Shown one piece after another: positions 5,890 through 9,886 of a stretch of 9,886 bases of DNA. The stretch is from positions 1-9,886 of the forward strand of contig JAGUYV010000096.1 of NCBI GenBank assembly GCA_020061125.1, in the 5' to 3' direction. Source of the stretch: a bacterium. GTDB lineage: Bacteria; UBP15; UBA6099; DSWB01. The notes beneath the pieces were generated by a model, which ran no database searches, was not told the DNA's origin, and worked only from the letters and a program-made list of their open reading frames with translations. Both the position numbers and the translations under genes were made by a program. Position 1 is the stretch's first letter. Each line of letters opens with the position of its first letter.

Positions 5890-6035
5890 ACCGCAAACCG
5901 GGGAGGCCGCGCCCAGCGCTTGCGGAAAACGGCATCAAGATCTATAAAACAGGAAGTTTGTCAACAAAACACAGGGATGTTGCGACTGGTCTCTATCGTG
6001 CATCAATACGCCTGCGGGCCGTGAGCATGAGATGA
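5886..6035 (+). CDS. Candidate 49-aa basic small protein bridging the propeller and kinase genes
   Basis: An open frame of 49 codons starts at an ATG that overlaps the stop of the propeller gene (ATGA, 5886-5889). It ends in a TGA that overlaps the ATG of the kinase (ATGA, 6032-6035). AGGA lies 10 nt upstream of its start. The product begins MNRKPGRPRPALAENG, is rich in Arg and Lys, and has no Cys, signal peptide or recognisable domain. The 4-nt overlaps at both ends are typical of translationally coupled operon genes. They would also explain why the kinase lacks a clear Shine-Dalgarno. Against it, codon use in the second half (ATA, TCA, ACT, AGT) departs from the GC-ending style of the neighbours, and a predicted promoter lies inside the frame. 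It may be a coupling ORF whose peptide has no function, or chance. Confidence 0.35.
   Translation: MNRKPGRPRPALAENGIKIYKTGSLSTKHRDVATGLYRASIRLRAVSMR
5920..5948 (+). promoter_or_regulatory. Predicted sigma70-type promoter upstream of the hybrid kinase
   Basis: TTGCGG (5920-5925), a 17-bp spacer and TATAAA (5943-5948, 5/6) form a plausible promoter. A start near 5955 would leave a leader of about 77 nt before the kinase ATG. The -35 and spacing are the same as in the predicted sulfatase promoter. If used, it would let the kinase be expressed without the propeller gene. Confidence 0.4.
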
Positions 6036-8401
6036 CACACCAAACCATACAAGCGCCCGGTGCGCCGCGCCTTCCCCTGCACGCCAAAATCGCCGTGCTT
6101 CTGGCCGTGCTGCTTGCAGGCTGTATGGTTCTGTTTTCTTTCGTCACCTACACATCAAGCCGCGGCGCGCGCCAGCGCCTTGCCGATGCCGAAATGCGCC
6201 GCACCGCGTCCCACATCGCGTCCTTGAGCACCCAGGACCAATCCCCGGACTGGGCGCGCGTGCAGAATTTCGTGCGTGGCACCATGAGCCTTTACACCAG
6301 GGAGGGCGCATCGGAACTGCTCGAACTGGTTTACATCGTGATCGAGGATGATTCGGGGACGCCGCGCGCCTATGCGTTCAATCACGCGCTCATGGGCAGC
6401 AACGGCATCCGCATCACGAATTCCGCGGGCGAACCCGTGGACGAAAAGAATTTCGAGGCATCCGCCCGGGATGTGGATCTGGGCGCGGTCTCCGCAGCGG
6501 GGCTGACTCATCTTTCCATGGACATCGCGGTCAATGGCCGCGCGCGCGGCACCGTGAAAATGGGATATCTGGTCAAGAACCTCGCGCGCCAGGAACAGAC
6601 GATTTTCCTTCAGTCCCTGGCCGTACTGTGCGGGCTGCTGGCGTTTGGCGTGATCCTGGCGATTTTCCTGTCGCGCCACCTCACGCGTCCCATACTCGAA
6701 GTGGTGCAGGGCATGGACCTCGTGGCCCACGGCGATCTGTCGGCCCGCGCCCATTCCCAGAACAGGGACGAAACCGCTCTGCTGGTGCAGGGGTTCAACC
6801 ACATGGCCGCGCACCTCGAAGAATCCAGAACCGCCCTGCACGAAAAATCCCGCGAACTGGCCGAATCCGAACTCAAATACAGAAGCGTGGTGGACAACGC
6901 CAACGACGGCATCGGCATCCTGCAGGCCGGTTGTCTGCGTTTCGTAAACGCGCGGTTCGCGGAAATTGCGGATGAACCCGCGGACACGATCACCGGCACG
7001 CCGTTTATCCAGTTCGTGGCGCCGGACGAGCGCCCGCGCTTCACAAAAATCCTCGACCGGTTCATCAACGATTCCGCACGGCGGCAGCTCGTGGAAACGG
7101 TCCTTGTCAGGCCCGGCGGCGAAACCGTGAGCGTTGAGATCAACATCACCGCCATAACCTGGAACGGCGCGCCCGCGGGCCTGGTCTGCGTGCGCGACAT
7201 CACCGAAAGAAAGAACGCCGAGACCGAGCGCCAGGCCCTGCAGGAGCAGCTTCTTCAGTCCCAGAAAATGGAAGCCGTGGGAACCCTCGCGGGCGGCATG
7301 GCCCATGACTTCAACAATCTGCTCGCCGTGATCATGGGCATCGCAGACCTCGCCCTTGTGAACGGCGATCCCGAAAGCAAGGATTACGCAAATTATCAGA
7401 AAATCGTGGACATCGCCCGCAAGGCCAAAGACCTCACAACTCGTCTGCTCACCTTTGTGCGCAAGGACAAATTGAATATCGAAACCGTGGACATCAGCCT
7501 GGTCACCGGGGAGCTTGCGGATTTGCTGCGCCGCACCATGCCCCGCAAAATCACGGTCGTCAACCGCGCCGCGGGCTGCCCCCTGCCCGTGAAGATGGAC
7601 GCCAACCAGGTGCAGCAGGCGCTGCTCAACATCTGCATCAACGCGGGCGACGCCATGCCGGACGGCGGACAAATCGTCATTGAAACGCGCCAGGCCGCGC
7701 CCCATGACATCCCCGCCGCTCTGGGCGCTGTTCTGTCTCCGGACCGCACATGTCTTGTGGAAATCCGGGACTCTGGGCCGGGCGTGCCCGAGGAAATCCG
7801 CACAAAAATATTCGATCCGTTCTTCACCACCAAAGGCCGCGGCAAGGGCACGGGCCTGGGGCTGTTCACCTCCATGGGCATCATTCGCAATCACGGAGGC
7901 GCGCTGTATACGGACCAGGCCCCGGAAGGCGGATGCTCGTTCCGCGTTTTGCTGCCCCTTGCGCCGGATTCCGGCGAAATGCGGGTCGCGGAAACGGCGC
8001 GCGCCCGCTCGCTGGCCCCGGGCAAACAATCGGAAACCATTCTTGTGATTGACGACGAACCCGATGTCCTGACCATGGCCAGGGAGGCCCTGTCCCTTAT
8101 CGGCTATTCGGTTCTGGCCGCGGAATCGGGCGCACGGGGCATCGAGGTGTTCAGGGAGAACGCGCACCGCATCAATCTCGTGATCCTCGACATGATCATG
8201 CCCGACATGGACGGCGCGCAGGCGTTCCGCGCGCTGCGCGAGATCAGCCCCGAGGCGCCCGTGTCCCTGTGCTCGGGCTACAGCGACGACGGCGACGCCG
8301 CGGCCCTTATCGAACAGGGCGCGCTCGGTTTCCTGCAGAAGCCTTTCGACATCAGCGGCCTGTCCGCGTTCGTGCGCGCAAAGCTGGACGCCCAGGCGTA
8401 A
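6032..8401 (+). CDS. Membrane-bound hybrid sensor histidine kinase (sensor-HAMP-PAS-HisKA-HATPase-REC)
   Basis: The protein has 789 residues. TM1 is about 18-40, an extracytoplasmic sensor of about 145 residues (45-190) has a Cache/PAS-like look, and TM2 is about 191-213. HAMP follows (214-268, with R-P-I-L-E-V and [13 protein letters not shown]). A PAS domain spans about 278-397 and ends D-I-T-E-R-K. HisKA carries the H-box G-G-M-A-H-D-F-N-N (phospho-acceptor His425). HATPase_c has the N-box with Asn537, D-S-G-P-G (580-584), F-D-P-F-F-T-T-K and G-T-G-L-G-L (606-611). The C-terminal receiver has Asp674/Asp675, phospho-acceptor Asp720 in [10 protein letters not shown], Ser748 and Lys770. All key residues are intact. 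It should autophosphorylate on ATP and pass the phosphate to its own receiver. The start has no good Shine-Dalgarno but overlaps the upstream short ORF (ATGA). No separate DNA-binding response regulator lies beside it; the next gene is Crp-like, so the output is unknown. Confidence 0.93.
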
Positions 8402-8500: not shown

Positions 8501-9184
8501 ATGACCGTACCCAAACAGGCCCTGCAAAAAGTGCCCCTGTTCCAGAGTTTGAACGAACAGGAGCTTTCGCTGCTCGGAGATGTGAGCAGCGTGAAAACCT
8601 TTGACAAAAACCAGACCATCATCCACAAGTTGGACGAAGGCGATACCTTCTTTTCCATCGTGAGCGGAAAGGTCAAGGTCATCCTCACCGACGACGAGGG
8701 CAAGGAGTACATCGTCAGCATCCTCAAGCCCCTGGATTTTTTCGGAGAGCTTGCCTTGCTGGACGGTGAGCCGCGCTCCGCGTCCGTGGTCGCGCAGGAA
8801 AAAACCGAGGTGCTGCAAATCAAGCGTGAGGAGTTTCTCCGGCTGATCACGGCCAACCCCGAGCTGTGCATCAAGATCGTGGGCGTGCTGGGCCGCAGGC
8901 TGCGCAAGGCCAACGAGCATATCGAGAGCCTGGTGTTTCTAGATGTGTGCGGCCGCCTGGCGCGCCTCATGCTGGACATGGCCGAGCAGCAGGGCACGCG
9001 CGGCGCCGGCGGCACTCTGGTCGAGGTCGGCTACAGCCGCACCGAGCTGGCCAACCTCATCGGCACAACGCGCGAAACCCTCACCCGCGCGCTCAAAACT
9101 CTCGAAACCATGGGGTATCTGGCCATCCAGAAGAATAAAATCACCATCCGGGACGAAGCCGGGCTGCGCACCCGCATGTACTGA
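8501..9184 (+). CDS. Crp/Fnr-family transcriptional regulator, CRP-like subgroup
   Basis: The protein has 227 residues, the normal family length. An N-terminal cyclic-nucleotide-binding fold (about 10-125) carries the phosphate-binding cassette F-G-E-L-A-L (81-86) and P-R-S-A-S-V (91-96). The dimerisation helix and hinge follow (about 126-157, including F-L-D-V-C-G-R-L-A), then a winged helix-turn-helix. The recognition helix is T-T-R-E-T-L-T-R-A-L-K-T-L (189-201). Arg191, Glu192 and Arg196 align with E. coli CRP Arg180, Glu181 and Arg185, which read TGTGA. There is no N-terminal Cys cluster, so it is not an oxygen-sensing FNR. Ala137 and Asn138 replace CRP Thr127 and Ser128, which contact cAMP, so the ligand is uncertain. 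The ATG at 8501 is chosen over 8453 because GAGG precedes it by 9 nt and the promoter lies between the two. Perfect CRP-type sites follow just downstream. The gene may act with the kinase upstream or control the FecR gene downstream. Confidence 0.92.
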   Translation: MTVPKQALQKVPLFQSLNEQELSLLGDVSSVKTFDKNQTIIHKLDEGDTFFSIVSGKVKVILTDDEGKEYIVSILKPLDFFGELALLDGEPRSASVVAQEKTEVLQIKREEFLRLITANPELCIKIVGVLGRRLRKANEHIESLVFLDVCGRLARLMLDMAEQQGTRGAGGTLVEVGYSRTELANLIGTTRETLTRALKTLETMGYLAIQKNKITIRDEAGLRTRMY

Positions 9185-9194
9185 CCACATCCGG

Positions 9195-9210
9195 CGTGAC
9201 GCCAATCACG
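9195..9210 (+). promoter_or_regulatory. Candidate Crp-type operator A (8/10)
   Basis: CGTGA-N6-TCACG is a perfect 5-6-5 inverted repeat differing from TGTGA-N6-TCACA only at the outermost base of each arm. It starts 10 nt after the Crp gene stop, and its centre is 24 bp from that of the perfect site B. It also overlaps the palindrome GGCGTGACGCC, so it could be read differently. Confidence 0.4.
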
Positions 9211-9218
9211 GCCCGGAA

Positions 9219-9234
9219 TGTGACTTTAATCACA
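9219..9234 (+). promoter_or_regulatory. Perfect Crp-type operator B, TGTGA-N6-TCACA
   Basis: TGTGACTTTAATCACA matches the E. coli CRP core at all 10 defined positions, and the dyad extends one more base pair (A...T). It lies 34 bp after the stop of a regulator that keeps the CRP base-reading residues. Its centre (9226.5) is about 117 bp upstream of the predicted FecR transcription start, far for a lone activator site but workable with the neighbouring dyads. Confidence 0.65.
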
Positions 9235-9267
9235 TACTTTATTTATTTATGAGCCTAAAATGTTGTG

Positions 9268-9283
9268 TGTGAGCGGAAACACG
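9268..9283 (+). promoter_or_regulatory. Candidate Crp-type operator C (8/10)
   Basis: TGTGA-N6-ACACG has a perfect left arm and a 3/5 right arm. It also contains the dyad GTGT-N8-ACAC. Its centre is about 68 bp upstream of the predicted FecR transcription start, close to the -61.5/-71.5 positions of class I CRP promoters. It is weaker than site B and may be chance. Confidence 0.3.
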
Positions 9284-9310
9284 CCTGTCCATTATCTTGA
9301 TATGAAGCTA

Positions 9311-9337
9311 TTGAAATATGGGTTTGCGTGTTATAAT
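9311..9337 (+). promoter_or_regulatory. Promoter of the FecR-domain gene (extended -10)
   Basis: TGTTATAAT (9329-9337) is a perfect extended -10 element. TTGAAA (9311-9316) could be a -35 with a short 15-bp spacer. Transcription should start near 9344, leaving a long leader of about 148 nt. This is the strongest promoter-like sequence in the window. Confidence 0.65.
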
Positions 9338-9343
9338 GAATCC

Positions 9344-9491
9344 GCTTTAATCAAGTAGGTTTACAAGGTCCGCGCATGACCGGAACAGTTCCAGACTCAA
9401 CTGACACCATGCCGTGTGATACGGTTAATTTTTCATATTCAATAAAGAAGTGCGCAATATGCGGATTCAAGATAATCCGGGGAGGACACGA
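9344..9491 (+). other. Predicted structured 5' leader of the FecR-domain gene
   Basis: The leader holds several short inverted repeats: GGTC-7-GACC (9367-9381), GGAAC-A-GTTCC (9382-9392), CCGT-5-ACGG (9412-9424) and CGGATT-6-AATCCG (9462-9479). The last ends directly against the GGGGAGG ribosome-binding site. I could not match it to a known riboswitch; the c-di-GMP GEMM core is not present. It also carries a possible 39-codon upstream ORF. Together with the Crp-type dyads and promoter, this accounts for the whole gap between the Crp and FecR genes. Confidence 0.35.
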
Positions 9492-9495
9492 ATGA
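9376..9495 (+). CDS. Candidate 39-aa upstream ORF with CxxC knuckle
   Basis: A 39-codon open frame begins at the ATG at 9376, with AAGG 7 nt upstream, and ends in a TGA overlapping the FecR start (ATGA, 9492-9495). The peptide contains K-K-C-A-I-C-G-F-K (24-32), like one half of a zinc ribbon, plus a further Cys at 14 and a His near the C-terminus. It could be a leader peptide coupling translation to the FecR gene or a tiny metal- or redox-sensing protein. Against it, codon third positions are not GC-biased as in the neighbours, and an open stretch of this length is not rare by chance. Confidence 0.25.
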   Translation: MTGTVPDSTDTMPCDTVNFSYSIKKCAICGFKIIRGGHE

Positions 9496-9886
9496 GAAAA
9501 CAAATGATCGGCACGGGCTTGATGCTGGCGCTGGCTCTGGGGCTTGCGCTCCTGGCCGCGGCGCCCGCATCGGCGGTTCCCGTCAGCGCCACGCTCACCT
9601 CCATTGTGGGCGATGTGCAGGTGCACGCACCGGGCGGGACATGGACCAAAGCCACTGAAGGCATGACCGTGAAAACCGGCGCCGAGATTAAAACCGGCGC
9701 CAAGTCCACGGTCGTAATCAAGTGGAGCACAAAGAATGTCATCAAGCTGACACCCTACACCAATTTCACAATCAAAGACATGGATGTGGACCCCCGCTCC
9801 AAGACCGTCAACACCAAGGCGGAACTCATGACGGGCAAGGTCAAGGGACGCGCGGAAAAACTCCGCAACCCCAATTCCAGCTACAC
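9492..9886 (+). CDS. Secreted FecR-domain protein (partial, 3' end outside the window)
   Basis: The visible 131 residues begin with a Sec signal peptide: M-R-K-Q, a hydrophobic core (6-24) and A-P-A-S-A, with cleavage likely after Ala28. A FecR-type domain follows: I-V-G-D-V-Q-V (38-44), G-x-W-x-x-A-x-E-G-M-x-V-K-T-G-A-E-I-K-T-G (49-69), then a strand S-T-V-V-I-K-W (72-78), I-K-L-T-P-Y-T-N-F-T-I (84-94) and G-K-V-K-G (115-119). Free-standing secreted FecR domains are common in Gram-negative bacteria and are not the classical anti-sigma regulator, since no cytoplasmic segment precedes the domain; their role is mostly structural or unknown. GGGGAGG lies about 6 nt before the ATG. The gene has its own strong extended -10 promoter and upstream Crp-type sites, so the Crp-like protein is its likely regulator. 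No stop is reached before the window ends. Confidence 0.85.
   Translation, partial: MRKQMIGTGLMLALALGLALLAAAPASAVPVSATLTSIVGDVQVHAPGGTWTKATEGMTVKTGAEIKTGAKSTVVIKWSTKNVIKLTPYTNFTIKDMDVDPRSKTVNTKAELMTGKVKGRAEKLRNPNSSY

Follow-up and report, generated by a model that had tools for sequence, protein, structure and literature searches.

The 90 bp that follow a CRP-family regulator gene in the window, the 9,886-nt stretch of DNA analyzed as a whole, probably constitute a tandem CRP-dependent class II promoter that activates the adjacent gene for a secreted FecR-domain protein. Judging from sequence comparisons, we assign this reading a probability of roughly three in four. We infer binding by the regulator, its ligand, the activation and the start site, which would combine as follows. 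A dimer of the regulator, probably nucleotide-bound, would occupy a perfect TGTGA-N6-TCACA dyad centered at about -41.5, in place of a -35 element, and a second dimer would sit on a dyad 22-24 bp further upstream, at about -65. Both dimers would recruit RNA polymerase to a -10 element at 9256-9261, and the recruited polymerase would switch on the FecR-domain gene through a leader of ~220 nt.

The original prediction of a local regulon with the FecR gene as its target is supported by the genome-wide enrichment of such dyads and by the conservation of dyads, regulator, and target. For a lineage with few sequenced relatives, these findings make regulator, operator, and promoter geometry concrete, and they would link cyclic-nucleotide signaling to a giant cysteine-rich secreted protein.

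The window comes from a 4.12-Mb draft genome that is 79% complete (G000), and the comparison set comprised six further species of the order (G001-G006), including a 95% complete relative (G001); the next nearest genomes share only the domain. G002 and G003 represent another family than the window's genome and, because they lie close together, sharing 279 of 329 spacer positions, amount to approximately one independent lineage. Genome-wide counts were obtained by fixed-pattern searches, with the reversed pattern as a control.

Conserved dyads in the spacer

The array starts 10 bp past the end of the regulator gene and contains the three dyads originally described, with the same coordinates and scores. 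The upstream dyad, CGTGA-N6-TCACG (9195-9210, 8/10), is centered at about -65.5 relative to the inferred start and corresponds in the alignment to the dyad that is perfect in the relatives. The promoter-proximal dyad, TGTGACTTTAATCACA (9219-9234), is perfect, is centered at about -41.5, and carries outer A/T and inner Y/R bases of the CRP type. The third (9268-9283, 8/10) coincides with the inferred start or lies slightly 3' of it. In shuffles of the spacer, a perfect dyad had a probability of 0.0007, and none of 20,000 shuffles produced one accompanied, 17-30 bp away, by a second dyad of at most two mismatches. The earlier estimate of about one perfect match per Mb by chance is roughly right, as the reversed pattern has 3 matches in 4.12 Mb. 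The 8/10 dyads taken alone are weak evidence, because the whole window holds 7 dyads with at most two mismatches, with 2.5 expected.

In both G002 and G003, the order regulator-dyads-FecR is kept, with regulator orthologues 60-61% identical to that of the window; the gene 5' of the regulator differs. Each of their spacers contains one perfect and one 9/10 dyad, 23 bp apart (24 bp in the window), and a MAFFT alignment places these two on the first two dyads of the window, with the perfect one having swapped position. Compared with either relative, the window is identical at 17 of 19 aligned half-site columns, as opposed to 120-125 of 268 (~45%) in the remaining spacer. The distances from the dyads to the start codon are also similar, at 297 and 273 nt in the window and 293 and 270 nt in the relatives. 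The conservation anticipated for the dyads therefore holds for the first two, together with regulator and target, and fails for the third, which has no conserved counterpart in the aligned spacers of G002 and G003. We rejected this third dyad as a member of the conserved array; it is probably incidental. In G006, the region that would hold the dyads and the regulator is missing because the FecR orthologue begins 246 nt into its contig.

Tandem dyads with a spacing of 22-24 bp are also present at G000:C19 and at G001:C59, the latter being a triple array (L074, 918-978) spaced at 22-23 bp.

Promoter geometry

A -10-like hexamer, TAAAAT, is located at 9256-9261 on the forward strand and begins 22 nt past the proximal dyad, which would place the start at ~9268. 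Exactly this offset carries a 5/6 match to TATAAT in all three genomes (TAAAAT in the window, AATAAT in G002, GATAAT in G003). By composition, the chance of such a hexamer at 22 nt is ~0.009 in the window and 0.027 and 0.023 in G002 and G003, which are not independent of each other. As a yardstick, the -10 element of E. coli galP1, TATGGT, also begins 22 nt past the CRP dyad, and the galP1 arrangement is class II, with the CRP site at -41.5. With its -10 element at 9256-9261, the perfect dyad would likewise be centered at -41.5. The same class II spacing is found in the window, G002, G003, and an unrelated genome, G344, described below. From the distances between dyad, hexamer, and start codon, the predicted 5' leader spans 9268-9491 on the forward strand, ~224 nt, compared with ~221 nt in the relatives. 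A sigma-70 scan of the region reported no promoter, which is expected since there is no -35 element, and an Rfam search of spacer and leader found no family.

Most likely, the -10 element of the FecR promoter is the one at 9256-9261 and not the TATAAT near 9332. With the downstream candidate, an extended -10 (TGTTATAAT, 9329-9337), the sites would fall at about -117 and -141; such positions, together with a regulator gene that ends so close to the array, would suit a regulator that represses the FecR gene or acts on its own transcript from the 3' end. We consider this improbable: the kept 22-nt spacing to the -10 hexamer fits activation at -41.5, and when the relatives are aligned, the downstream TATAAT is not conserved.

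The CRP-family regulator

The regulator gene (8501-9184, forward strand) encodes 227 aa with a cyclic-nucleotide-binding domain and a CRP-type helix-turn-helix containing R-E-T-L-T-R. Both Pfam matches, cNMP_binding in the N-terminal part (4.4e-26) and HTH_Crp_2 in the C-terminal part (1.4e-17), are above the cut-off, and they form the domain pair of the CRP/FNR superfamily, an N-terminal nucleotide-binding domain followed by a C-terminal Crp-type helix-turn-helix. The top NCBIfam model is cAMP-activated CRP (NF008732), with 130 bits, below its equivalog cut-off of 266 bits.

Alignment with E. coli CRP, taken from MG1655 and 33% identical, bears out the matching recognition helix claimed for this protein: R-E-T-L-T-R aligns with R-E-T-V-G-R, and RETLTR is unchanged across the three orthologues (window, G002, and G003), all of which retain R-E-T-x-x-R. 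The phosphate-binding cassette, G-E-L ... R-S, is also kept, with columns G72, E73, L74, R83, and S84 invariant. In helix C, Thr127 and Ser128 of E. coli CRP, which make the adenine contacts, are replaced by Ala-Asn in all three orthologues, and the cAMP specificity of the regulator is unsure because of this replacement.

The regulator is the only clear CRP-type helix-turn-helix protein detected in the 79%-complete genome. Other HTH_Crp_2 matches there (contigs C351, C56, and C84) were rejected as CRP proteins, since their sequences look GntR- and DtxR-type. Directly 5' of the regulator, the window encodes a hybrid sensor kinase with HAMP, PAS, HATPase, and receiver domains (6032-8401); this neighborhood is particular to the window, as the kinase is not adjacent to the regulator in G002 or G003.

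Discrimination between CRP and Rex

The operator consensus of the NADH-sensing repressor Rex, TTGTGAA-N4-TTCACAA (PMC2883068), shares both core and spacing with the perfect dyad, and Rex is present as a single copy in 7/7 genomes of the order, with the copy in the window's genome confirmed by NCBIfam. A perfect dyad alone therefore cannot name its reader. The agreement between recognition helix and dyad proposed at the outset is indeed compatible with CRP, and the flanking bases favor CRP; the match itself is not specific, as Rex uses the same core.

Perfect dyads are several-fold enriched in the window's genome (17 versus 3 for the reversed pattern), in line with the enrichment that a regulon would leave. 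They are also enriched in relatives with no detectable CRP-type regulator (18 versus 4 in G001; 4-6 versus 0-1 in G004-G006), for which Rex is a likely reason. Sites were scored by the bases flanking the core on its outer and inner sides, four of which discriminate between CRP and Rex, with some sites being intermediate. All four of these bases are CRP-type in the perfect dyad of the window and none is Rex-type, which would mean T ahead of and A behind the core with A and T on its inner side, so that it does not match a Rex operator, and the perfect fecR sites of the two relatives score 4 and 3 for CRP and 0 for Rex. By these bases, each of the three genomes has fecR sites of the CRP type.

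The strict CRP-type pattern, allowing one mismatch, has 18 matches in the window's genome versus 1 in the control, 6 versus 1 in G001, and 1-3 versus 0 elsewhere; in G002, the fecR site is the sole exact match. Further CRP-type sites in the window's genome lie upstream of very large secreted proteins (contigs C452 and C476) and near an ileS-like gene.

Several of the 17 perfect dyads in the window's genome are themselves Rex-like. The hydroxyacyl-CoA dehydrogenase gene has a Rex-like site upstream in G000 and G005 and a mixed-type site in G002, G003, G004, and G006, and other Rex-like sites precede a pyrophosphatase-like gene in several genomes of one family (f3) and, in G000, a nuo-like operon. 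Dyads at the hydroxyacyl-CoA dehydrogenase gene were located at L005 1501-1516 and on L069, L077, and L078. The Rex pattern at two mismatches is too loose, giving 25 matches versus 8 controls in the window's genome and counts near the control in most relatives. No CRP-type regulator was detected in the 95% complete G001 despite its 18 perfect dyads and tandem array; another reader may therefore exist in the order.

The shared core and the Rex-like sites elsewhere in these genomes could be taken to make the perfect dyad a Rex operator. We judge this very improbable for the fecR promoter, given the Rex scores of zero in all three genomes and the linkage of the CRP-family gene to the FecR target, which contrasts with a Rex gene located elsewhere (G000:C393) and unlinked to it. 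Where Rex is present, a perfect TGTGA-N6-TCACA dyad should not be assigned to CRP without considering its flanking bases.

That the dyads are RNA hairpins forming a terminator of the regulator gene, and not protein sites, is more improbable still: the first 65 nt past the gene do fold at -17.8 kcal/mol (z -4.2) with a T-rich end, but folding is a property of any inverted repeat, a terminator scan did not report one, and the relatives, whose folds are different and in one case no more stable than those of shuffles, lack a T tract directly after the dyads, yet conserve the TGTGA/TCACA letters.

The likely FecR-domain target and a possible nucleotide signal

The likely target of the tandem promoter begins at 9492 on the forward strand, and the contig end cuts the gene, so that the window contains its 5' part (9492-9886, 395 nt). 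The encoded N-terminus is 51-53% identical to those of the proteins linked to crp in G002 and G003. In G002, the protein has 3,683 aa, 387 of them Cys, and carries a TSP3-like repeat and, close to its N-terminus, a FecR domain (7e-13); a Pfam search gave no family for the ~2,700 residues of cysteine-rich repeats. The gene for this giant secreted protein occupies 4175-15226 on the reverse strand of L086 (G002:C97).

Where a FecR paralogue of the relatives has no linked regulator, no dyad better than 8/10 was found. A dyad in another FecR gene of the window's genome (G000:C162) falls within the coding region, where it would be translated as V-I-K-I-T, and was rejected as a coding coincidence.

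Each of the seven genomes encodes class III nucleotide cyclase domains. In G002, a gene combining TPR and a class III nucleotide cyclase (L057, 6574-9402) adjoins the regulator in divergent orientation, and G003 has a cyclase match at the corresponding place. Literature searches found no description of a CRP-FecR pair.

Related arrangements beyond the order

We examined 74 CRP-like loci of other lineages for dyads carrying no more than one mismatch. In 4 of them, such dyads lie within 250 nt of the CRP gene on its 3' side, against an expectation of 0.38 dyads derived from the remaining sequence of these loci; the P of ~0.0006 is indicative only, as the test came after the pattern had been noticed. 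No such dyad was found in the upstream stretch that was scanned. In G037, G041, and G208, the TGA stop of the CRP-like gene belongs to a TGTGA half-site, within dyads of 0-1 mismatches at L020 2177-2192 (reverse orientation), L022 2174-2189, and L247 2173-2188 (reverse orientation). The gene that follows the CRP-like gene in G041 (L022) again encodes a FecR-domain protein.

In the unrelated lineage of G344 (G344:C166, L245), the CRP-like gene is followed by a perfect and a 9/10 dyad in tandem, 23 bp apart (reverse strand, 2876-2891 and 2899-2914), shortly before the contig ends. A -10-like hexamer is again found at 22 nt, in an AT-rich stretch that holds other such hexamers.

These loci raise the tentative idea that many CRP-like regulators of little-studied phyla might control the next gene on their 3' side through an operator that overlaps their own stop codon or closely follows it, with several TGA stops within TGTGA, tandem sites 22-24 bp apart, and secreted FecR proteins as a recurring target.

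Comparison with known systems

Operators of Rex, which is encoded in the window's genome, share the TGTGA-N6-TCACA core with the fecR sites and differ from them in the outer and inner bases, which at the fecR sites are of the CRP type in all three genomes. With E. coli CRP, the regulator has in common the recognition residues R-E-T-x-x-R and the putative TGTGA-N6-TCACA sites, whereas it differs in its limited identity (33%), its score below the NCBIfam CRP cut-off, and its Ala-Asn in place of Thr-Ser in helix C. Along with E. coli CRP, its best full-length relatives by sequence among solved structures are actinobacterial CRP/GlxR-type proteins (4byy, 3d0s); regulators of this type, such as Rv3676, have other ligand residues in helix C, and we know of no FecR target linked to them.

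The predicted promoter resembles E. coli galP1 and other class II and tandem (class III) promoters in its center at -41.5, the 22-nt offset of its -10 element, and its tandem sites. It differs from the CRP-dependent promoters of E. coli in that the likely target adjoins the regulator and, in a relative, encodes a giant secreted protein, and in that the tandem sites lie 23-24 bp apart. In this comparison, the predicted tandem fecR promoter would be a well-conserved further example of a known CRP-dependent type.
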